Below are positions 20,515-31,209 of a stretch of DNA of 64,000 bases, piece after piece. Every line of letters begins with the position of its first letter. Position 1 is the first letter of the stretch. The notes beneath the pieces were generated by a model that saw only the letters and a list, made by a program, of their open reading frames with translations, was not told the DNA's origin and did no database searches. A program made the position numbers and the translations under genes. The stretch spans positions 2,714,037 to 2,778,036 of the forward strand of contig NZ_LT984895.1 of the NCBI RefSeq assembly GCF_900258505.1, read 5' to 3'. This DNA comes from Brachybacterium timonense (GTDB taxonomy: Bacteria; Actinomycetota; Actinomycetes; Actinomycetales; Dermabacteraceae).

Positions 20515-21381
20515 TCAGGCCAGCTGAGCCGGGTCGACCAGGAAGCCCTCCGGGTCGACCACGAAACCGCCGACGGTCTCGTGCACCAGCCCGACGATCT
20601 GCCCGATCCGTCGATACACGCGCACCCAGCGCTGAGCGGTTGCCTCGTCGGGCTGCTCCAGCTGCAGCTCTGCACGGTCTTCCGGCTCATACACAACCAT
20701 GTAGTACACCGCCTCATCCGCCCAGGGAACATCCTGCAGCGCCACGGGCACCTCGCCGCGTCCCACATGCACGAGGATCCGGCCGCCCTCATCGAGGTCG
20801 ATGCTGAGCCCATACGAGGAGATCGGCGCATCCGTCGGGTCGTCATCGAGCGTCGCCTCCGGCTCGAGCGGCGCGATGAGTTGCGCGAAGGACTCCGGGG
20901 CGAGCACATGCGGGCTCAGCACCGCCAGGTCCGGAATGCAGCAGGGGTGGGGCTCCAGGCGCACACCATCCTCCGTGACCACAGCGCCGAACAGTCGGCG
21001 CGCAAGGGACCACGCGAGGTCAAGTGCCTCCAGCTCGACACCTTCGGGCTGTCCGTCAGGGAATGCTCGGCCGTACCCGTGGGAATCAGGCTCGGCTTCG
21101 CGTGCACTGTCGCCCTGGCTCGCGTCGCCACGCTCACGCGGAGCCTCCAGGGTCCAGCGTCCTGCCCCGCGTCGGCTCTCATCCGCTACCAGACGCATGC
21201 CATCACCGATCGTGAGCACGCCACCGTCGAGCGCTGCCTCCGGGCGCACATTGCGGATCATCGTGAGCACATCCGCCGGGTCGGTGGTGCGCGGAAGCTG
21301 CAGCCGGTGCGCGGTCAGGGGCTGCGTCGTCGCATCGTCGGACTGCGTCGTGTCGTGGGACAGATCGGATGGGGCGCTCAT
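20515..21381 (-). CDS. protein of unknown function coupled to dcd
   Basis: A 288-residue protein whose ATG at 21381 overlaps the dcd stop codon by one base (TGATG), implying translational coupling. I do not recognise a family. The N-terminal ~40 residues are Ser/Thr/Asp-rich and probably disordered. The rest alternates beta-like stretches and acidic loops, with a CCIPDLAVLSPHVLAPESFA segment near the middle and LDEGGRILVHVGRGEVPVAL followed by a YYMVVYEPEDRAELQLEQPD stretch. There is no signal peptide, membrane helix or nucleotide-binding motif. Its link to nucleotide metabolism is suggested only by the operon. Confidence 0.7.
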   Translation of the reverse strand: MSAPSDLSHDTTQSDDATTQPLTAHRLQLPRTTDPADVLTMIRNVRPEAALDGGVLTIGDGMRLVADESRRGAGRWTLEAPRERGDASQGDSAREAEPDSHGYGRAFPDGQPEGVELEALDLAWSLARRLFGAVVTEDGVRLEPHPCCIPDLAVLSPHVLAPESFAQLIAPLEPEATLDDDPTDAPISSYGLSIDLDEGGRILVHVGRGEVPVALQDVPWADEAVYYMVVYEPEDRAELQLEQPDEATAQRWVRVYRRIGQIVGLVHETVGGFVVDPEGFLVDPAQLA

Positions 21382-21974
21382 CAGCTCTCCTCCTCCACCG
21401 GGATACGCGTGCGATGGAAGTTCAGGGCCGAACGCGACGGGGTGGGGCCGCGTTGACCCAGATAGCGGTTCAGGTTCCCGGCGGACCCGTACGGGCGCTC
21501 TGCCGGGCTGGACAGGCGGAAGAAGCACAGCTGCCCGACCTTCATTCCGGGCCAGAGCGCGACAGGCAGGGTGGCCATATTCGACAGCTCCAACGTGATG
21601 TGCCCGGTGAAGCCGGGATCGATGAAGCCCGCGGTGGAATGCGTGAGCAGGCCCAGACGGCCCAGCGAGCTCTTTCCCTCCAGGCGCGCAGCGACATCAT
21701 CGGGCAGGGTGATGCGCTCATACGTCGAGGCCAGCACGAACTCCCCGGGGTGCAGCATGTAGGGCTCGTCGGGGTCCATCACGATCTCCCGCGTGAGCTC
21801 AGCCTGCTCCTGCGCAGGGTCGATCATCGCGTACTTGTGATTGTCGAACTGGCGGAAGAAGCGGTCGATGCGCACATCCACGGAGGCGGGCTGAACCATC
21901 TGCGGGTCGTACGGGTCCAGCTCGACCCGGCCCGCCTCGATCTGGTCTCGAATATCGCGATCGCTCAGCAGCAC
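21381..21974 (-). CDS. dcd: dCTP deaminase
   Basis: A 197-residue enzyme that converts dCTP to dUTP (some actinobacterial relatives go directly to dUMP), supplying dTTP synthesis. It begins [20 protein letters not shown]. It carries the family block [16 protein letters not shown], the active-site region [13 protein letters not shown] with S-S-x-G-R, and [21 protein letters not shown] with the catalytic Glu. A C-terminal tail, which closes over the nucleotide in this family, is present. The length is normal. Whether it is mono- or bifunctional cannot be told by eye. Confidence 0.96.
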
Positions 21975-23031: not shown

Positions 23032-23607
23032 ATGCCCAAGATCATCGGCGCCTCGCTGGAGGAGCACCGTGAACGCACCCGGGAGAAGATCTTCGCCGCG
23101 CTCGGCGAGCTCCTGGGCACACACGAGTTCGACGAAATCACGTTCTCGTCGATCGCCAAGAGCGCCGGGGTTGGGCGCACCGCGATGTACAACCACTTCC
23201 CCGACAAGGACACGCTCCTGGTCGAGTACGCGATCCATGAGACCGACGGGTACATCCGCGCTCTTGAGGAGGGCATCTCCCACGCCCGCAGCCCCCGGGA
23301 GGCGGTGCTGCTCTACGTGCGTACCCAGCTGGAGCTGACGGTGTCGTTGCATATGCCGACGAATCTCTCGCGCCACCAACTCGCCCCGCAGACGGCGATG
23401 AAGATGCATGAGCACGTGCTGATGATCGACAAGGTGCTGCGGCGCATTCTTGACAGCGGTATCGCCAGCGGTGACTTCGCCGAGGATCTCGATGTCGATG
23501 CCGCGATACGCATCATCAACGCGCTGGTGGTCGGCAAGCGGATGCAGCGCGTCACCCGCTCCTCGCTGGAGGAGTTCGTGCTGCGCGGCCTGGGTGCTCA
23601 GGTCTGA
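23032..23607 (+). CDS. TetR/AcrR-family transcriptional regulator
   Basis: A 191-residue protein with an N-terminal TetR HTH at about residues 10-56 (REKIFAALGELLGTHEFDEI, then SIAKSAGVGRTAMYNHFPDK). A helical ligand-binding domain follows, containing a conserved-looking NLSRHQLAPQTAMKMHEHVL stretch. It is probably leaderless. It converges on the pyrophosphatase-like gene (23664) and has no obvious divergent target, so its regulon and ligand are unknown. Confidence 0.9.
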   Translation: MPKIIGASLEEHRERTREKIFAALGELLGTHEFDEITFSSIAKSAGVGRTAMYNHFPDKDTLLVEYAIHETDGYIRALEEGISHARSPREAVLLYVRTQLELTVSLHMPTNLSRHQLAPQTAMKMHEHVLMIDKVLRRILDSGIASGDFAEDLDVDAAIRIINALVVGKRMQRVTRSSLEEFVLRGLGAQV

Positions 23608-23663: not shown

Positions 23664-26204
23664 TCAGTCCTCAGCGTGGCTATCGTCCTCGGCGTCGTCC
23701 TTCGGGTCCTGCGCGGCTGCTGAGCTTTTCGCGCCCCGTCGGCGCGAGCGCCCGCCGCGGCCCTTCCGGCGTGGCGCATCCTCGACCGGCAGAAGCACCT
23801 CCTCGACGTCGTCGTCCTGCGCATCCCAGGTCATCGCGTCCAGGGTCTGCTCGGGCAGGGGCTCATCCCGACCTCCGAACAGCGGCTGGCTGAGGTCCTC
23901 CTGCCCGTCTTCGAGGTCCACCTCGGGAGCGGTCGCCGTGATCACCCAGAAGACGCTCGCGACGATCAGTGCCACCACGGCAATGCCCCAGCGCAGCGCC
24001 GGATCCACGTCCCCGCCCCATACGATCGCGGTCGCCGCCGGGGTGATGAGGGCAGCACCGAACGCCACGACAAGCAGAAGCGGCAGCGCCACGGCAGCGA
24101 CGCTCGACCGCAGAGCACCCACCAGCACCGCGGACGTGATCGCACCGGAATGCGCCCACGAGCCGGGGCCGCCGTAGCGGCCAGACGCGATGGAGGCGAC
24201 AGCGCCCTCGGTCGCAGCCGACCCCAGCAGCATCCACAGCCCCAATCCGCCTGCTGTTGCCGCTGCCCCCAGGACGAGTCCGGGCAGCGACGACGCGCCG
24301 AGCCCGAACCCGGCGGCGACGGGCAGCAGCACAGCCACGACCACCGGGGTGACGCTCGCGCGGCGCAGCCCGTCGAACACATCGCGCAGATCAGCGCTGT
24401 CCCGGCCCTCCAGGCGCGCTGAGCGCGACTCCACCACGGCCAGAGCACCCGCGCGGCGCACCGCATCGAGCAGTGAGGCGCCCACAAGCAGCACGGTCAC
24501 GGCACCGGTGAGCACACCGGCGATCACCGGCATCGCCATCGGTGTGAGGGCGTGCAGGGACCTGTCCTCCCAGACTGTGCCCGCGCGGGGCGCCAGCTGA
24601 ATGGTGGTGACGATCGGCGCGATCACCGCGGTCGCGGCGATCACCGCGGTCAGCAGCATGATGCCGCGCGGCCCCGGGGATGCCTGGGCGACGACCTCGC
24701 GCAGCTCCCGCGGCGTGCCGGGCCGATCCGCGATACTCGGCGCCATCAGCGCAGCAGCATGTCCGGCGAGCACCACGAGGGCACCGAGGCCGGCATGGGC
24801 GAGCAGTGTGGAGGCCAGTTCCGGCACCCCGGCGCTGAGAACGCTCAGCACCACCACGATCAGGGCCACCAGGGACAGCCCGCCAGCGGCCAGCAGCGCC
24901 GAGGACCCGAGCGCGGCGGCACCGCCGAGCGCTCCACCGGTGCGGCTTGTGCGGGCGGCGCGAAGCACGGTGCCGCCGCGCCGCTCAGCGATCGTGGCCA
25001 TCAGCATCACGGCGCCGAACGCGGCGAGTGCGCCCAGGCCCAGCGCCCCGCCGATCACCGCGGACGGGTTGATCGTGTGCAGGGTGATGACGTCGAGGAA
25101 CGCACCGGCGTCACGCGAATCGTCGGTCGCGCTGATCCACTGCCCCATGTCCTTCGCGGCTTCTTCGATCTGTCCGGTCATCTCTGCGCGCGGCAGCGGC
25201 TTCTCTCCGGCGATGGCCGGGTCCGTGAAGTTCGCTTGGCCAGCCTGGGCGAAGCGCAGCGCCTTGTACTGGGAGGGCAGCCACAGCACGGCGCACGCCA
25301 CCAGTGCGGCCGCACCGAGCATCGACGATACGACCCCGCCCAGAGTGAATGTGGCCGACTCGCGCCCCTCAGCGCCCACGTGCGGCACCACGGCGACGAT
25401 GGCGGCGGTCAGCCAGGCCACGCCCAGGGCAAGCAGCGGCACAAGCACGGCCTCCGCGGCGATGACCTGCACTCCCAGCAGCACGGCAGCTCCCGCGAGC
25501 GCGGTCACCAGTGCCACGAGGTCGGCACCCAGTGCGGCACCGCGGCGGAACAGTCGGGCACTGAGCTCAAGCGGCGCCCCGAGGATCGAGGTGTCGTCGG
25601 CGTCTTCATCGTTCTCGTCCACGCCGACGAGCAGCACGGCGGCGGCGCCGACGGCATCGAGCGGAGCCGCGGTGGCGCGCAGGGCGAGCGCGGAGAGGGC
25701 GGCGCCCGCGGCCATGGCCAGCAGGGCGATACCCGAGGCGGTCTGCAGGAACCAGATCACCACGACGATCGGCAGCACCGCCCAGGACAGTGCGCTCACC
25801 ACCGCGAGGGCACCGAGCCGCTGTGTGGCGCGCCCCCGTTCGGCGGCCTCGACGCCGAGCGCCGCCACCAGGATCATCATGCCGCGCCATGCGGCGAGGG
25901 GGGCCAGCAACAGCCCGGCCAGCAACATGCCCGAGCGCAGGATCCGATCGTCCGTCGAGCCGGGTACCAAGAAGAGCAGCGCCACGGCCGGGACCCCGAC
26001 CCACAGGATCACCGAGCCCGCGGATCCGAGCAGGGCGCCGAGGCGCCGCCCCAGCGCGGGGTCGACGCCGTCGGCGTTCTCATTGCGAGCCATGCGCTGC
26101 GGCACGATGAATCCAGCGACGATGCCTGCGAGGGACAGGACGCCGAGCACGAGCAGGATGATGGCGATGTCATCGCCCAGCCGGTAGTCAGTGATCAGAT
26201 CCAC
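23664..26204 (-). CDS. membrane-bound pyrophosphatase-like protein lacking catalytic motifs
   Basis: About 846 residues with some 15-16 membrane helices. The GTG at 26204 has GGAAG five bases upstream; an ATG at 26234 is the alternative. Several stretches align by eye with H+-translocating membrane pyrophosphatases (HppA). LDAVGAAAVLLVGVDEND (about 182-199) sits where the family has a DVGADLVGKVE-type motif. SLLDAVRRAGALAVVESRSA resembles the AVGRAA...MVEEVRRQF segment. GRYGGPGSWAH (675-685) corresponds to GNYGGKGSEAH. The substrate-binding DNVGDNVGD and GDPFKDT-type acidic motifs and the Lys of GNTTKA are absent. The C-terminal ~75 residues are an acidic/basic tail. I infer an intact pseudoenzyme; distant homology needs an HMM search. 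Confidence 0.65.
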   Translation of the reverse strand: MDLITDYRLGDDIAIILLVLGVLSLAGIVAGFIVPQRMARNENADGVDPALGRRLGALLGSAGSVILWVGVPAVALLFLVPGSTDDRILRSGMLLAGLLLAPLAAWRGMMILVAALGVEAAERGRATQRLGALAVVSALSWAVLPIVVVIWFLQTASGIALLAMAAGAALSALALRATAAPLDAVGAAAVLLVGVDENDEDADDTSILGAPLELSARLFRRGAALGADLVALVTALAGAAVLLGVQVIAAEAVLVPLLALGVAWLTAAIVAVVPHVGAEGRESATFTLGGVVSSMLGAAALVACAVLWLPSQYKALRFAQAGQANFTDPAIAGEKPLPRAEMTGQIEEAAKDMGQWISATDDSRDAGAFLDVITLHTINPSAVIGGALGLGALAAFGAVMLMATIAERRGGTVLRAARTSRTGGALGGAAALGSSALLAAGGLSLVALIVVVLSVLSAGVPELASTLLAHAGLGALVVLAGHAAALMAPSIADRPGTPRELREVVAQASPGPRGIMLLTAVIAATAVIAPIVTTIQLAPRAGTVWEDRSLHALTPMAMPVIAGVLTGAVTVLLVGASLLDAVRRAGALAVVESRSARLEGRDSADLRDVFDGLRRASVTPVVVAVLLPVAAGFGLGASSLPGLVLGAAATAGGLGLWMLLGSAATEGAVASIASGRYGGPGSWAHSGAITSAVLVGALRSSVAAVALPLLLVVAFGAALITPAATAIVWGGDVDPALRWGIAVVALIVASVFWVITATAPEVDLEDGQEDLSQPLFGGRDEPLPEQTLDAMTWDAQDDDVEEVLLPVEDAPRRKGRGGRSRRRGAKSSAAAQDPKDDAEDDSHAED

Positions 26205-26364: not shown

Positions 26365-28284
26365 TCAGGACAGCAGGGACAGGTCCAGCGCGGTGGGGGC
26401 TCCGTCGACGATGCGGATCGGCACACCCCAGTCCTGCTGATGCATGTGGCAGGCGGGGAACTCGACCGACGGGTCCGCGTCGCACGAGGCGGCGCGGGCA
26501 CTGACGTGCAGCACACCCTCGGTGTGCGCGGGATCCAGGTGCACGGTGCGTTCGAGCGCGGTATCGGTGCCGCCGCCGTCGCGGATCATGCCGGACGGGG
26601 TGGTGGAGATCGTCACCTGGGTGGAGGGGCCGAGCGAGTCGTCGAGCTTGTGTCCCTCCGGCGGGGTGAACAGCACACGGACGGTCAATGGGCCGCGGCC
26701 GATCTCGGTGACGGGGCGTTCTGAGCGCAGGGAGCCTTCGTCGATGCGACGCTCTGCAGCCTTCGCCACAGGCACCCAGGTGACCCGGTGCCTGCCGGAC
26801 TCGACGACGAGCAGCTGCCCGATGCCGTCGATCGGTGGGCCGATGGTCGCGTCGGAGGGTTCGGCGAGATCTGTCGCGACGGTGACAACGTCGGCCTGTC
26901 CGTTCTCGCCGTGTTCGTCGATCAGGCGGATCGCCCCGTTGTATGTATCGGCCACAGCGATGCGTCCATCCGGCAAGGCGGTCACACCCAGGGGATGCTG
27001 GAGGCGGGCTGTTTCGGCGGGGCCGTCGACGTGACCGAAGTCGAACAGGCCGGTACCCACCAGGGTGGTGACCTGCATGGCCGACGGATCAATCACGCGC
27101 ACAGCGGAGGTCTCCGAATCCGCGACGACAAGGCGGCCGTCCTCGAGTTCGTCGATACCGGAGGGCTGCGCCCACCAGGAGCGCACCAGTGGACCGTCCA
27201 CGAGGCCCTCCTGTGTGGTGCCCGCGAGAACGGCGAGAGTCCGACCCGCCGGGTCAAAGGTCCAGATCTGATGGATCCCGGCCATGGTGATGACGGCACA
27301 GTTCAGGGCATGCGACCAGGTGAGGTCCCACGGGGTGGAGAGGTCGAAGCCCAGCGGATCACCGCCGCCGACGGGAAGCGGCGCGCCCTGCATCCACTGG
27401 GCGCCCGAGCCCGCAACGGTGGTGACCTCGGTGGCGGTGCGTGCACGCAGCAGACGGTCACGCCCGATTCGTACACCGCGTAGGCGATGGTTCGCGGTAT
27501 CAGCGACGAGCAGGTCGTAGCCGACGGCGTCGGCGACCTCCGCGGGCAGGGCGAGCAGGCCGTTGGGTTCGGCGAACTGCGCCTCGGCGCCATCGCCGTC
27601 GGCATGGCCCCGCTGCCCCGCACCGATCACCTCATCAACGGTCACCGCGTCGTGCTCGAACACGACCAGACGGTGGTGGCCGGGGTCTGAGACGACGAGT
27701 CGGCCGTCCGGCAGCACAACGGCTTTGGAGGGGAAGCTCAGCGTGGAGGTGGGCTGCTCCTCGAGGACGGTCGGGGCGTCGCCACGCCGCAGGGAGCCGT
27801 CAGCCTCGGCTTCGGCCACCAGTCGGCCGACGAGCGCGTCGAGATTCGCAGCATGGCCCTCACCGGAGAGGCTGCCGGCGATACGGCCGTGCGTATCGAT
27901 CACGATCAGGGTGGGCCAGGCGCGCGCGCCGTACTCACTCCAGGTGGACAGCTGTGGATCATCGAGCACCGGGTGGGTCACGCCGTAGCGGCCGATGTTC
28001 GCGGCGAGCGCTTCGGGGTCCTTCTCGAACTCGAACTTCGGGGAATGCACGCCGATGACCACAAGCTCCTGGGAGTACTTCTCCTCGAGCGGTCGCAGCT
28101 CATCGAGCACATGCAGGCAGTTCACGCAGCAGAACGTCCAGAAATCCAACAGCACGATCTTGCCGCGCAGATCCTCGAGCCGCAGGTCGGCTCCGCCGGT
28201 GTTGAACCAGCCGCGGCCACGCAGCTCCGAGGCGCGGGGGCGGTCGTTCCAGGGTGCGGCGGTGTCGTGTTCGGCGGCAGTCAT
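26365..28284 (-). CDS. thioredoxin-domain/NHL-repeat protein (NHLRC2-like)
   Basis: A 639-residue protein starting at the ATG at 28284. Residues about 20-170 form a thioredoxin/TlpA fold with a redox pair C53-V-N-C56 in FWTFCCVNCLHVLDEL. From about 200 to 510 there is an NHL-type six-bladed propeller (repeats such as LPDGRLVVSDPGHHRLVVFE and LPDGRIAVADTYNGAIRLID). A C-terminal beta-rich domain carries extra Cys (SCDADPSVEFPACHMHQQDW). There is no signal peptide, so it is cytosolic. This architecture matches NHLRC2-like proteins, whose biochemical function in bacteria is unsettled. It is on the same strand as, and 160 bp upstream of, the pyrophosphatase-like gene. Confidence 0.88.
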   Translation of the reverse strand: MTAAEHDTAAPWNDRPRASELRGRGWFNTGGADLRLEDLRGKIVLLDFWTFCCVNCLHVLDELRPLEEKYSQELVVIGVHSPKFEFEKDPEALAANIGRYGVTHPVLDDPQLSTWSEYGARAWPTLIVIDTHGRIAGSLSGEGHAANLDALVGRLVAEAEADGSLRRGDAPTVLEEQPTSTLSFPSKAVVLPDGRLVVSDPGHHRLVVFEHDAVTVDEVIGAGQRGHADGDGAEAQFAEPNGLLALPAEVADAVGYDLLVADTANHRLRGVRIGRDRLLRARTATEVTTVAGSGAQWMQGAPLPVGGGDPLGFDLSTPWDLTWSHALNCAVITMAGIHQIWTFDPAGRTLAVLAGTTQEGLVDGPLVRSWWAQPSGIDELEDGRLVVADSETSAVRVIDPSAMQVTTLVGTGLFDFGHVDGPAETARLQHPLGVTALPDGRIAVADTYNGAIRLIDEHGENGQADVVTVATDLAEPSDATIGPPIDGIGQLLVVESGRHRVTWVPVAKAAERRIDEGSLRSERPVTEIGRGPLTVRVLFTPPEGHKLDDSLGPSTQVTISTTPSGMIRDGGGTDTALERTVHLDPAHTEGVLHVSARAASCDADPSVEFPACHMHQQDWGVPIRIVDGAPTALDLSLLS

Positions 28285-28386
28285 AAGGTCAGTCAACACC
28301 GCCGGGGCGGGAGGGGCCAAACACCGCGACACAGAACGCACCACGCGCAGGGCCCGACTATGGTGCAGCCACCGCGGGAATCGCAG

Positions 28387-29091
28387 TCACCAGGTGCTGA
28401 TCCATTCGTGCAGAGCCGGGTCCTCGAGGCTGTCGATCACGAGGTCCGCCTCGGGCGCTGGATCACCGGGGGCGGGCACGGCGATCAGCCGCAACCCTGC
28501 GTCGCGAGCGGCACGCGCACCGGTGGCGGAGTCCTCGAAGGCGAGCGCGTCACGGGGGTCGACGCCCAGGGCGCGCGCTGCTGCGGCATACATGTCCGGA
28601 GCGGGCTTGGGTCGCTCGACGGTGTCGGATGCCTGCAGCACGGTGATGTGCTCACGCAGCCCACCCACCGTGAGTTTGTGCTCCAGCGCCGTGAGCCACG
28701 AGTTGGAGGCGCAGCCAACGCCCACGCGCTCAGCGACCGCGCGAAGTGTCGTCAATGCTCCTGGCATGGTGCGCACGCCGTCTGTGAGCAGCTCATCGAA
28801 CACCTCGTGGAGCCGACGGTCCACGATCTGCACGTCCGTGCCGGAGCGTTCGGCGAACAGGGCGGCGGCGGTCTCCAGAGCGGAGCCGTGCAAGGCTCGG
28901 CGGTCGTCGTCCCTGATGCGGGCACCGACCTCTTGGATCACACGCCGCTGCGTCTCCTCCCACACCGACTCGGTGTCCAGCAGCAGACCGTCGCAGTCGA
29001 AGACGACGGCGCGCGGCGTCCAGTCCCCGAACGCTGCGGCGATCCGTGAGGCGGTGCTGTTGCTGCCGGGATCGCGTTGCGGCTGCGTCAT
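28387..29091 (-). CDS. HAD-superfamily phosphatase, beta-phosphoglucomutase-like (copy 1)
   Basis: A 234-residue protein. Motif I is DCDGLLLDTE near residue 34 (nucleophile and acid/base Asp pair). Motif II is SNSWLTALE. The conserved KPAPDMYAAAARALGVDPRD gives the motif III Lys, and LAFEDSATGARAARDAGLRL gives motif IV. This is the subclass I pattern of phosphosugar phosphatases and beta-PGM. It overlaps the next HAD gene by four bases (ATGA), so the two are co-translated, and they resemble each other along their whole length. The substrate is not identifiable. Confidence 0.88.
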   Translation of the reverse strand: MTQPQRDPGSNSTASRIAAAFGDWTPRAVVFDCDGLLLDTESVWEETQRRVIQEVGARIRDDDRRALHGSALETAAALFAERSGTDVQIVDRRLHEVFDELLTDGVRTMPGALTTLRAVAERVGVGCASNSWLTALEHKLTVGGLREHITVLQASDTVERPKPAPDMYAAAARALGVDPRDALAFEDSATGARAARDAGLRLIAVPAPGDPAPEADLVIDSLEDPALHEWISTW

Positions 29092-29816
29092 CGGGTGCGG
29101 GTCCAGCTCTCGACCCAGCGGTGCAGCTCGGGGTCGGTGAGGTCCGTCAGGCGGTGATGCGAGCGCGGGTCCTGACCGGGAATGACGGGCACGGAGATCA
29201 GCTGGAGTCCTGCGGCCAGAGCGGATTCCGCTCCTGTTTCAGAGTCTTCGATCGCCAGGCAGTCGGCGGGGTCGGCGCCGAGCAGCTCGGCGCCACGCCG
29301 ATACATGTCGGGGGCGGGTTTGGGCTGTGCGACGTCCTCGATCGCAACGGTGTGGTCTGCCACGTCGTCGATGCCGAGGGAATGGACCTTCTTGTCGAGC
29401 AGGTCGCGGGGTGAGTTGGAGGCGATGGCAACGGGCTTGCGCTCGGCGATCGCGCGGAGGATCTCCAGGGCGCCGGGCAGCGGGGTGAGCGGGCGGTCGA
29501 GATCGGCGCGGTGCTGGGCGAGCAGCTCGCCGACGACGACCTCCGGGTCCTTACCGACGATCCGTGCGATCGCGGCGACGACGGTCTGGGCGCTGCGGCC
29601 GGTGATCTCGCGGCGGGTGTGCTCATCGATGGTGGCGCCATGGGACTGCAGGTAGGTGTCCTGTGCCTGAACCCATTGCTGTTCGGTGTCCACCAGGGTG
29701 CCGTCGAGGTCGACGACGACAGCGGCGGGCTCCCAGCTCGGCGGCCAAGGTGTCAGTTTCGAGGCGGTGGGCAGGTGATCGCGTGACGGGGTGGGATCCG
29801 TGATGGTCTCGCTCAT
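29088..29816 (-). CDS. HAD-superfamily phosphatase, beta-phosphoglucomutase-like (copy 2)
   Basis: A 242-residue protein from the ATG at 29816. It has all HAD motifs: DLDGTLVDTEQQWVQAQDTY, SNSPRDLLDKK, KPAPDMYRRGAELLGADPAD and LAIEDSETGAESALAAGLQL. It is a clear paralogue of the downstream HAD gene, and the two are adjacent and overlapping, so they probably arose by tandem duplication and have diverged. Likely a cytosolic phosphosugar or nucleotide phosphatase; the substrate is unknown. Confidence 0.88.
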   Translation of the reverse strand: MSETITDPTPSRDHLPTASKLTPWPPSWEPAAVVVDLDGTLVDTEQQWVQAQDTYLQSHGATIDEHTRREITGRSAQTVVAAIARIVGKDPEVVVGELLAQHRADLDRPLTPLPGALEILRAIAERKPVAIASNSPRDLLDKKVHSLGIDDVADHTVAIEDVAQPKPAPDMYRRGAELLGADPADCLAIEDSETGAESALAAGLQLISVPVIPGQDPRSHHRLTDLTDPELHRWVESWTRTR

Positions 29817-29855
29817 GATGGCTCCAGCGTAGCCACGCCGTGTCCTGCCCTGCAG

Positions 29856-29902
29856 CACGCCGCGTCGGTGCCCCGCGGAGGTCGAGGCGCCGACGCGGCG
29901 TG
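29856..29902 (-). terminator. terminator of metY
   Basis: CACGCCGCGTCGG (29856-29868) and CCGACGCGGCGTG (29890-29902) make a perfect 13-bp stem just after the metY stop codon and before the HAD genes. There is no U-run. Confidence 0.65.
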
Positions 29903-29925
29903 TCGGGTGGGCCGGCGGACGCTGC

Positions 29926-31209
29926 TCAGGCAGCGGCGGCGAGGCCCTTCTCCAGATCGGCGAGGATGTCGTCGATGTGTTCAAGGCCAACGCTCAGGCG
30001 CACGAAGCCCGGCCCGGCGCCCGCCGCCACCAGCTCGTCGGCGGTGAGCTGGGAGTGGGTGGTGGAGGCGGGGTGGATCACGAGGCTGCGCACGTCACCG
30101 ATATTCGCCACGTGCGAGTGCAGCTCGAGTGCTTCGACGAACTTCTTGCCGGCGTCGATGCCGCCGGGCAGCTCGAAGCCGAGCACGCTGCCGGCTCCGC
30201 GCGGGAGGTAGGTGTCGGCCAGCTGCTTGTACGGGGAGGAGCTGAGCGATGCCCAGGTGACCGAGGCGACGCGCTCGTCGGCTTCGAGGAACTCGGCGAC
30301 GGCACGCGCGTTGTCGACGTGCCGCTCGATGCGCAGCGGGAGGGTCTCCAGGCCCTGGCCGATGAGGAAGGCGTTGAACGGGGAGATCGCCGGCCCCAGG
30401 TCACGCAGCAGGTTGGTGCGGGCGCGGGTGGCGAACGGCGCCGGGACCTGCGTGAACACGAGACCGTTGTAGGACTCGTCAGGCTGGGTGAACTGCGGGA
30501 ACTTCTCGGGATGGGCGGAGAAGTCGAAGCTGTCACCGTCGACGATCACACCGGCGATGGAGGTGCCGTGCCCGCCGAGGAATTTGGTGGCGGAGTGCAC
30601 CACGACGTCGGCGCCGTGTTCGAGTGGACGCAGCAGGTAGGGGGTGGCGATCGTGTTGTCGACGATCAGTGGCACACCGACCTCGTGGGCGACATCGGCG
30701 ATGCGGCGGATGTCGAGGATGTCGTGCTTGGGGTTGGGGATGGTCTCGCCGAAGAACGCACGGGTGGTGTCGTCGGCGGCGGCGCGCCAGGACTCGGGGT
30801 CGGCGGGGTTCTCAACCCAGCGCGGGGTGATCCCGACTGTCGAGAGGGTGTGCTTGAACAGGTTGAAGGTGCCGCCGTACAGGCTCGGGGAGACCACGAC
30901 GGAGTCGCCGGCACCGGCCACGTTGAGGATCGCGAGAGTGATGGCGGCCTGCCCGGAGGCGAGTAGCAGACCTGCCGCCCCGCCTTCGAGGGCCGCGATC
31001 CGGGACTCCACGGTGGACTGCGTGGGGTTCGTGATGCGGGTGTAGATGTTCCCCGCCTCGGTGAGGGCGAAGCGGTCGGCTGCCGACTGCGTGGAGGGGA
31101 AGGCGAAGCTGGTGGTCTGGTGGATCGGCAGGGCCAGCGATCCGGCGGCCGGGTCAGGCTCCTGGCCGGCGTGGATCGCGAGGGTCTCGAAATGCTGCGG
31201 GGTGGTCAT
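29926..31209 (-). CDS. metY: O-acetylhomoserine sulfhydrylase (PLP-dependent)
   Basis: A 427-residue Cys/Met-metabolism PLP enzyme that makes homocysteine (or methionine) from O-acetylhomoserine and sulfide or methanethiol. It begins [20 protein letters not shown] and has the [20 protein letters not shown] block. The PLP Lys is K209 in [11 protein letters not shown], and a [13 protein letters not shown] end is typical of the family. The length fits MetY rather than the shorter MetB/MetZ. It is monocistronic, with about 170 bases of upstream DNA that may hold a leader (see findings). Confidence 0.93.

Follow-up and report, generated by a model that had tools for sequence, protein, structure and literature searches.

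The minus-strand gene at 23664..26204 of the 64,000-nucleotide stretch of Brachybacterium timonense DNA analysed here (the window) encodes a membrane protein of 846 amino acids with the predicted fold of a membrane pyrophosphatase (mPPase), in which most of the catalytic and gate residues of these pumps are missing; this description is based on the open reading frame (ORF), Pfam, profile alignment and the predicted structure. We use pPP as a working name for the product. By sequence and predicted fold pPP belongs to the H_PPase superfamily, yet it is not an mPPase, since two features that define the pumps, the hydrolytic centre and the ion gate, were tested and are lacking. Purifying selection acts on the gene. 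We tentatively favour the view that pPP is an ex-pump membrane protein which has lost hydrolysis and ion movement and is selected for a different job, as a non-transporting receptor or scaffold relaying a conformational state.

The ORF is intact and, as an earlier note on this DNA had it, runs on the minus strand from a GTG start at 26204 to a stop at 23664. The GTG start is shared: the N-terminus M[DEA][LFV]I[TS] is found at the chosen start in 24 of 30 pPP rows (the window counted), and GGAAG lies at most 20 bases upstream of the start in 21/30; in the six rows without this N-terminus the start chosen by the script lies downstream of the likely true start. The G+C content of the frame by codon position is 0.78/0.53/0.86, which is a coding pattern, and the sole stop is the terminal one. 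The dN/dS values (NG86) are 0.12–0.37 for the 22 closest pairs listed, with silent changes predominating. Based on the codon-position pattern, the single terminal stop and these dN/dS values, pPP is not an antisense artefact. The main alignment has 36 rows for the 43 pPP genomes, without G003, G027, G028, G030 and G033 (split, fragmentary or truncated) and without the later finds G316 and G317. In G003 (locus L054) the pPP gene is broken into two open frames that overlap. At locus L115 it is in pieces and the match of the neighbouring thioredoxin–NHL gene (Trx-NHL) is also shortened, which hints at an assembly error there.

pPP is a full-length HppA homologue with a modelled mPPase fold, and the proposal of the earlier note that the frame was kept after catalysis was lost is supported. 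The window protein matches PF03030 above the curated cut-off (E 7.6e-9; 35.2 bits vs 29.7), and this is the sole Pfam match listed for pPP at E <=10. Among the other members some lie above the cut-off and some below it or without a match; 21/36 rows match at E <= 0.01. The NCBIfam model PRK00733 gives E 6.8e-16, but with 57.4 bits vs a cut-off of 912. Global profile–profile alignment of pPP with 17 pumps (13 from the genus) gave P 100 and E 2.7e-57, and local alignment of residues 8–763 with 51 actinobacterial pumps gave E 3.3e-42. The 51 canonical pumps were chosen by the motif DNVGDN[VI]GD and a length >650 amino acids; the invariance of D6.35, D6.39 and D6.43 among them is by construction. 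A search of the PDB with the single pPP sequence gave no match at E <=10, and a search with the family profile recovered 11 mPPase sequences (E 1.2e-11 to 0.019) along with one chance match (E 0.89).

The predicted structure of pPP has the mPPase fold: it matches the Vigna and Thermotoga mPPases, the comparison proposed by the earlier note, with 584–644 residues aligned across mPPase structures, and fold searches with the model listed no high-scoring family other than mPPases. The three segments that had been quoted as HppA landmarks are present and align as claimed. The number of helices, which had been put at roughly 15, has to be revised: the hydropathy profile fits 17, three long hydrophobic blocks each being split in two. 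The summed Lys and Arg of the loops come to ~41 inside vs 9 outside in a 17-helix topology with the N-terminus outside. PMC9405524 gives 15–17 helices for mPPases and cites a topology study of the Streptomyces coelicolor pump.

PMC6882861 names the residues that make up the hydrolytic centre, the coupling funnel and the ion gate. Its hydrolytic-centre list comprises 12 acidic residues, three Lys and one Asn; it gives the Asn as N12.53, and the Asn of GNTTK (Vr N534, 12.43) was mapped here instead. We mapped the listed sites onto pPP through the profile alignment, and residue counts are out of 36 pPP rows. Concerning the hydrolytic centre, only D5.77 and D11.57 are widely kept. The Mg–pyrophosphate (PPi) motifs are lost from the stretch of transmembrane helix (TM) 5, loop 5–6 and TM6 (residues 176–231; 25512..25679, minus strand), where R176 (5.50), E197 (5.71), D203 (5.77) and D228 (6.50) are kept and K5.58, D5.61, D5.65, E5.76, D6.39 and D6.43 are replaced. 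The commonest residues are Thr or Ala at 5.58, Ala or Ser at 5.61 (Asp in 4/36), Leu, Val or Ile at 5.65 and Ala at 5.76. D6.35 is Leu in most rows and Glu in the window protein, D6.39 is Arg in 23/36 (Gln, Ala, Asp, Gly, Ser, Glu or Pro in the other 13), and D6.43 is Arg in 31/36 and His in three. The TM11–12 region (residues 486–513; 24666..24749, minus strand) has lost D11.50, with Leu or His in 31/36, and K12.50, and has kept D493 (11.57); the alignment is of low confidence at D11.50 and D493 and least reliable at R502, S509 and R513. Loop 15–16 with the segment GRYGGPGSWAH and R699 (residues 675–700; 24105..24182, minus strand) lacks D16.31 and D16.35, most commonly Gly, and D16.39, most commonly Ser. 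K15.64 is most commonly replaced by Ala, Val or Leu, and D15.61 is Glu in 15/36, the window protein included. The earlier note had called the lost sites hydrophobic or neutral; this does not hold for all of them, as D6.39 and D6.43 are mostly Arg and 6.35 and 15.61 are Glu in the window protein.

The gate is affected as well. Of the set D6.50, E6.53/6.57, S6.54, D/N16.46 and K16.50, D6.50 alone is kept (28/36), while E6.53 has become Ala (31/36), S6.54 Leu or Val (36/36) and K16.50 Leu (31/36). The pumps have 40 charged columns with at least 96% invariance, and just 10 of these are retained by 70% or more of the pPP rows. From the aligned residues we infer that pPP can neither hydrolyse PPi nor pump ions.

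Of the kept residues, R5.50 is found in 29/36 rows (His in six), D5.77 is Asp in 21 and Glu in 12, D11.57 is Asp in 33 and Glu in two (a tentative alignment), and K16.38 has become Arg (R699) in 35/36. E197 (E5.71), R421 (R10.33) and R594 (R13.62), with residue numbers derived by hand from the alignment, are invariant in all 36 rows; only 24 columns of the pPP alignment are invariant, and these are three of them. Also, 20 of the 62 Gly and Pro that are invariant in the pumps are kept. In the canonical pumps E5.71 and R13.62 are present in 51/51, whereas 10.33 is Arg in only 27/51; at this position pPP is thus stricter than the working pumps. PMC10897367 describes a communication network that runs from helix 5 to helix 13 and is propagated via helix 10; it terms the outer ring ‘of largely unknown function’ and proposes the helix 5–13–10 route. 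Of all kept residues the invariant E197, R421 and R594 are the most telling; they correspond to the lid-to-dimer network. R421 lies in the ARTSRTGG segment, which is predicted to be cytoplasmic (residues 415–427; 24924..24962, minus strand), and R594 in TM13 (residues 577–598; 24411..24476, minus strand), together with a further invariant residue, R583.

pPP also has parts that are enlarged or added. Loop 8–9 is enlarged to ~72 residues (307–378; 25071..25286, minus strand) and carries the motif LWLPSxYxxLRF..FTD..R..QIE, with P310, L316 and G322 invariant and R317, R339 and Q345 in 35/36 rows; it is predicted to be extracellular, and the model makes it partly helical (block pLDDT 54–76). The motif is recognisable in the other genera and weaker in the G092 row, which is without FTD. 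A WEDR motif (W545 35/36, E546 33/36, D547 and R548 34/36) is found in loop 12–13 (residues 540–548; 24561..24587, minus strand), a predicted extracellular part of low model confidence. Both loops are placed outside based on the alignment with mPPases and on charge bias. The tail (residues 756–846; 23667..23939, minus strand), predicted to be cytoplasmic, contains DLED (763–766; D763, L764 and D766 in 36/36) and PLF (774–776; all three in 34/36, with two gaps), followed by an acidic and Lys/Arg-rich end of low confidence in the model. In several species, e.g. L028–L031, the first cytoplasmic loop contains an extra Ala/Arg/Glu-rich stretch after residue 41–47 (window numbering). No Cys is conserved in pPP; Cys is found in at least six rows only at columns 178 (8/36) and 752 (19/36).

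The only PF03030 match in the window genome is the pPP gene, so Pfam would credit this genome with a proton pump; a PF03030 match is no proof of one. The same search found no catalytic hppA in the window genome, in which a soluble pyrophosphatase is present. Across the family Dermabacteraceae, 47 genomes were searched with a pPP profile and 43 contain pPP: 37/38 in Brachybacterium and 1/1, 4/4 and 1/1 in three other genera, with none in a fifth genus (one genome) and a sixth (two genomes). The counts 43/47 and 37/38 are hand readings with canonical-only matches removed; the raw tallies, 45/47 and 38/38, include canonical matches. A few of the matches in the 37 genomes of the genus are fragmentary. 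In the sole Brachybacterium without pPP (G031) the contig stops inside Trx-NHL, so the absence is not established. A catalytic mPPase is found in 19/47 genomes of the family, 18 of these among the 38 of the genus, and 17 genomes carry both proteins; in 26/43 pPP genomes, that of the window included, no catalytic mPPase was detected, a few of the assemblies being incomplete. The checks proposed by the earlier note, for conservation in the family and for a canonical hppA elsewhere, are thereby answered. In G018 (L084, plus strand, first frame) there is a second mPPase besides pPP, with the motifs IADIGADLMK and CTGDNAGDSVGPSAD; it looks catalytically equipped and is clearly unlike the usual hppA of the genus.

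Beyond the family, profile searches covered 297 genomes of the order and 296 of the phylum, with at most three candidates scored in most of them; no pPP was found in the loci inspected there, a coverage that leaves out other phyla and hits that were not fetched. The first two pump motifs are present in 7/7 loci of L039–L045 and in 27/29 of L118–L146; the other two, L127 and L140, show the third motif only, in short open frames (450 and 465 amino acids) that could not be judged. A contig scan with two motifs typical of Brachybacterium, by which other genera would be missed, showed that 23/52 matched stretches encode a relative; these fall into 22 loci, all in Brachybacterium. Among the genomes searched, pPP is limited to one bacterial family. 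A tree was built with a quick search from 12 pPP rows and 26 canonical ones, chosen by hand; in it one branch (SH-aLRT 100) splits all pPP from the canonical pumps. Most pPP end branches are longer than those of the pumps, and the pump row L130 is also long; the tree analysis warns that long branches may meet and that 11/12 pPP rows have an odd letter make-up. The term ‘paralogue’ in the earlier note is supported only in part: the two groups are separate, but the branch between them is too long for the origin of pPP to be placed.

Concerning the neighbourhood, pPP lies downstream of the Trx-NHL gene on the same strand, as had been noted earlier. Trx-NHL (26365..28344, minus strand, start codon left open) encodes a thioredoxin-like and NHL-propeller protein whose sequence resembles those of plant SOQ1 and human NHLRC2 and which carries the motif FCCVNC. 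In 32/33 loci, some genomes being counted twice, it precedes pPP on the same strand, and the 33rd locus begins inside pPP. The gap between the two genes is 160 bases in the window; of the 11 loci measured, nine have gaps of 10–143 bases, L061 has the two genes overlapping by 4 bases, and in L062 they are 4 bases apart (from ATG). Neighbourhood comparison also shows genes for HAD-family hydrolases, usually preceding Trx-NHL and mostly present as a pair (L061 has a single place that is matched by both HAD queries); in the window they are found at 28387..29091 and 29088..29990 (both minus strand, the start codon of the second left open). Beyond the 3' end of pPP, on the plus strand, there is a TetR-family regulator (23032..23607), a conserved neighbour in Brachybacterium. 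Trx-NHL is common in the order (a match in 100/119 genomes, not all full-length) and is thus independent of pPP. In two genomes of the sixth genus (L184 and L185) pPP is missing between Trx-NHL and the TetR gene that follows it, and TetR is reversed compared with Brachybacterium; this is either a loss of pPP or the state preceding its arrival. Gene order supports at most co-transcription of pPP and Trx-NHL, and a physical link is a guess. Disulfide exchange of pPP with the thioredoxin domain was rejected, as pPP has no conserved Cys. Apart from this, a protein without a Pfam match is encoded at 20515–21528, beside dcd in many loci; its ORF overlaps dcd, and the true start is probably further in.

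The best-supported class for pPP is a non-transporting scaffold or receptor, into which the earlier guess of a scaffold or regulator also falls. In the account we favour, pPP would descend from an H+/Na+-pumping mPPase and would have lost PPi hydrolysis and ion movement. It would still be a dimer, in which the cytoplasmic lid (loop 5–6) and helices 5, 10 and 13 switch together; the enlarged loops 8–9 and 12–13 would cap the former ion exit, and the cytoplasmic pocket and the DLED...PLF tail would bind a ligand or partner. The conformational state could then be passed between the pocket or outer cap, the twin subunit and a cytosolic partner, for which Trx-NHL, encoded upstream, would be the first candidate, a pairing taken from gene order alone. 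The more specific version, that pPP is the first non-pump branch of the mPPases, with the network kept, the cap and tail gained, and a membrane switch signalling to the cytosolic, SOQ1/NHLRC2-like Trx-NHL, is possible and rather doubtful. Several points weigh against our account. The long branches fit loose constraint as well as they fit a new function. The window protein is acidic at four of the 12 acidic sites (D203, E213, D493 and E666), two of them with Glu for Asp, so the loss is incomplete. The invariant salt-bridge residues may merely stabilise the fold, the switching being what we infer from them, and the outer cap and the WEDR loop have low model confidence. The gene order may be plain inheritance, as the HAD genes travel along and Trx-NHL is widespread in the order; and without a conserved Cys, pPP is unlikely to be a thiol substrate of the thioredoxin domain.

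The main rival is a passive structural protein, in which the mPPase fold survives only as a stable dimeric platform, e.g. for envelope organisation through the outer loops, and nothing switches. Branches that are long relative to most pumps, the many structural Gly and Pro among the kept residues (20 of the 62) and the conserved outer loops all agree with it; the three invariant network residues do not, 10.33 being stricter than in the 51 pumps, and we consider it unlikely. The partly basic Mg site (R217, R221 and R699) could instead serve the binding or movement of an anion, with pPP as a sensor or transporter of a metal-free, phosphate-type ligand. The Arg counts at 6.39, 6.43 and 16.38 fit this, whereas 6.39 varies in 13 rows, the gate below has no polar residue except D6.50, and the Arg residues may merely form salt bridges with D203, D228 or D493, which makes such a role quite unlikely. 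An ion channel or leak via the old pump pore, also named in the earlier note, is very unlikely: the model does contain the pore helices, and most rows retain R5.50 and D6.50, but little of a polar path is left at the gate, where E6.53, S6.54, K16.50 and D11.50 (weakly aligned) are replaced and Ala, Leu and Val now stand at gate positions. That pPP is a regulatory subunit in mixed dimers with active HppA would suit the kept dimer network and the 17 genomes with both genes; this heterodimer is highly improbable and was set aside on occurrence, since no catalytic mPPase was detected in 26/43 pPP genomes, including that of the window, a few of them incomplete. A divergent but functional pyrophosphatase or pump is scarcely credible and was set aside, since, for all the shared predicted fold, the retention of R5.50, D5.77, D6.50 and D11.57 in most rows and the Arg for K16.38, the hydrolytic-centre and gate residues are replaced in most pPP rows, and of the 12 acidic sites in the list of PMC6882861 two are mostly Arg. 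A decaying pseudogene is just as hard to credit and was likewise set aside: the gene is split in some assemblies (G003 and G028), but the dN/dS values and the matches in 37/38 genomes of the genus contradict decay for most species.

We found no report of an inactive mPPase homologue, or of an mPPase together with Brachybacterium, in the open-access full-text literature. A branch that is conserved and under selection and yet lacks the catalytic residues would be the first non-pump use of the mPPase fold. How the subunits of mPPases communicate is an open question, and a protein like pPP, in which the residues of the proposed route are kept while hydrolytic site and gate are both gone, could serve to test that route alone. 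If the more specific version of our account is true, pPP is a natural separation-of-function version of the proposed inter-subunit route.

Among known systems, pPP resembles HppA (PF03030; Vigna 4A01, Thermotoga 4AV3/5LZQ, Pyrobaculum 8B37) in predicted fold, charge-bias topology and glycine-rich loops, and in having R5.50, D6.50 and the E5.71–R10.33–R13.62 set. Unlike HppA, it is without most of the Mg–PPi site, coupling funnel and ion gate, has longer branches, and possesses the enlarged loop 8–9, the WEDR loop 12–13 and the DLED...PLF tail. The Streptomyces coelicolor pump reportedly has a 17-helix topology, and pPP shares with the HppA of its own genus (e.g. L071) a hydrophobic segment, seen by eye, in addition to the 16 helices known from solved structures. 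From actinobacterial HppA it differs as a separate gene and group, with 24% identity in the profile alignment and without the catalytic motifs that are present there. Inactive rhomboids are polytopic proteins with a catalytic fold that lack the active site and are reused for binding or regulation; their fold is unrelated to that of pPP, and their function is known.
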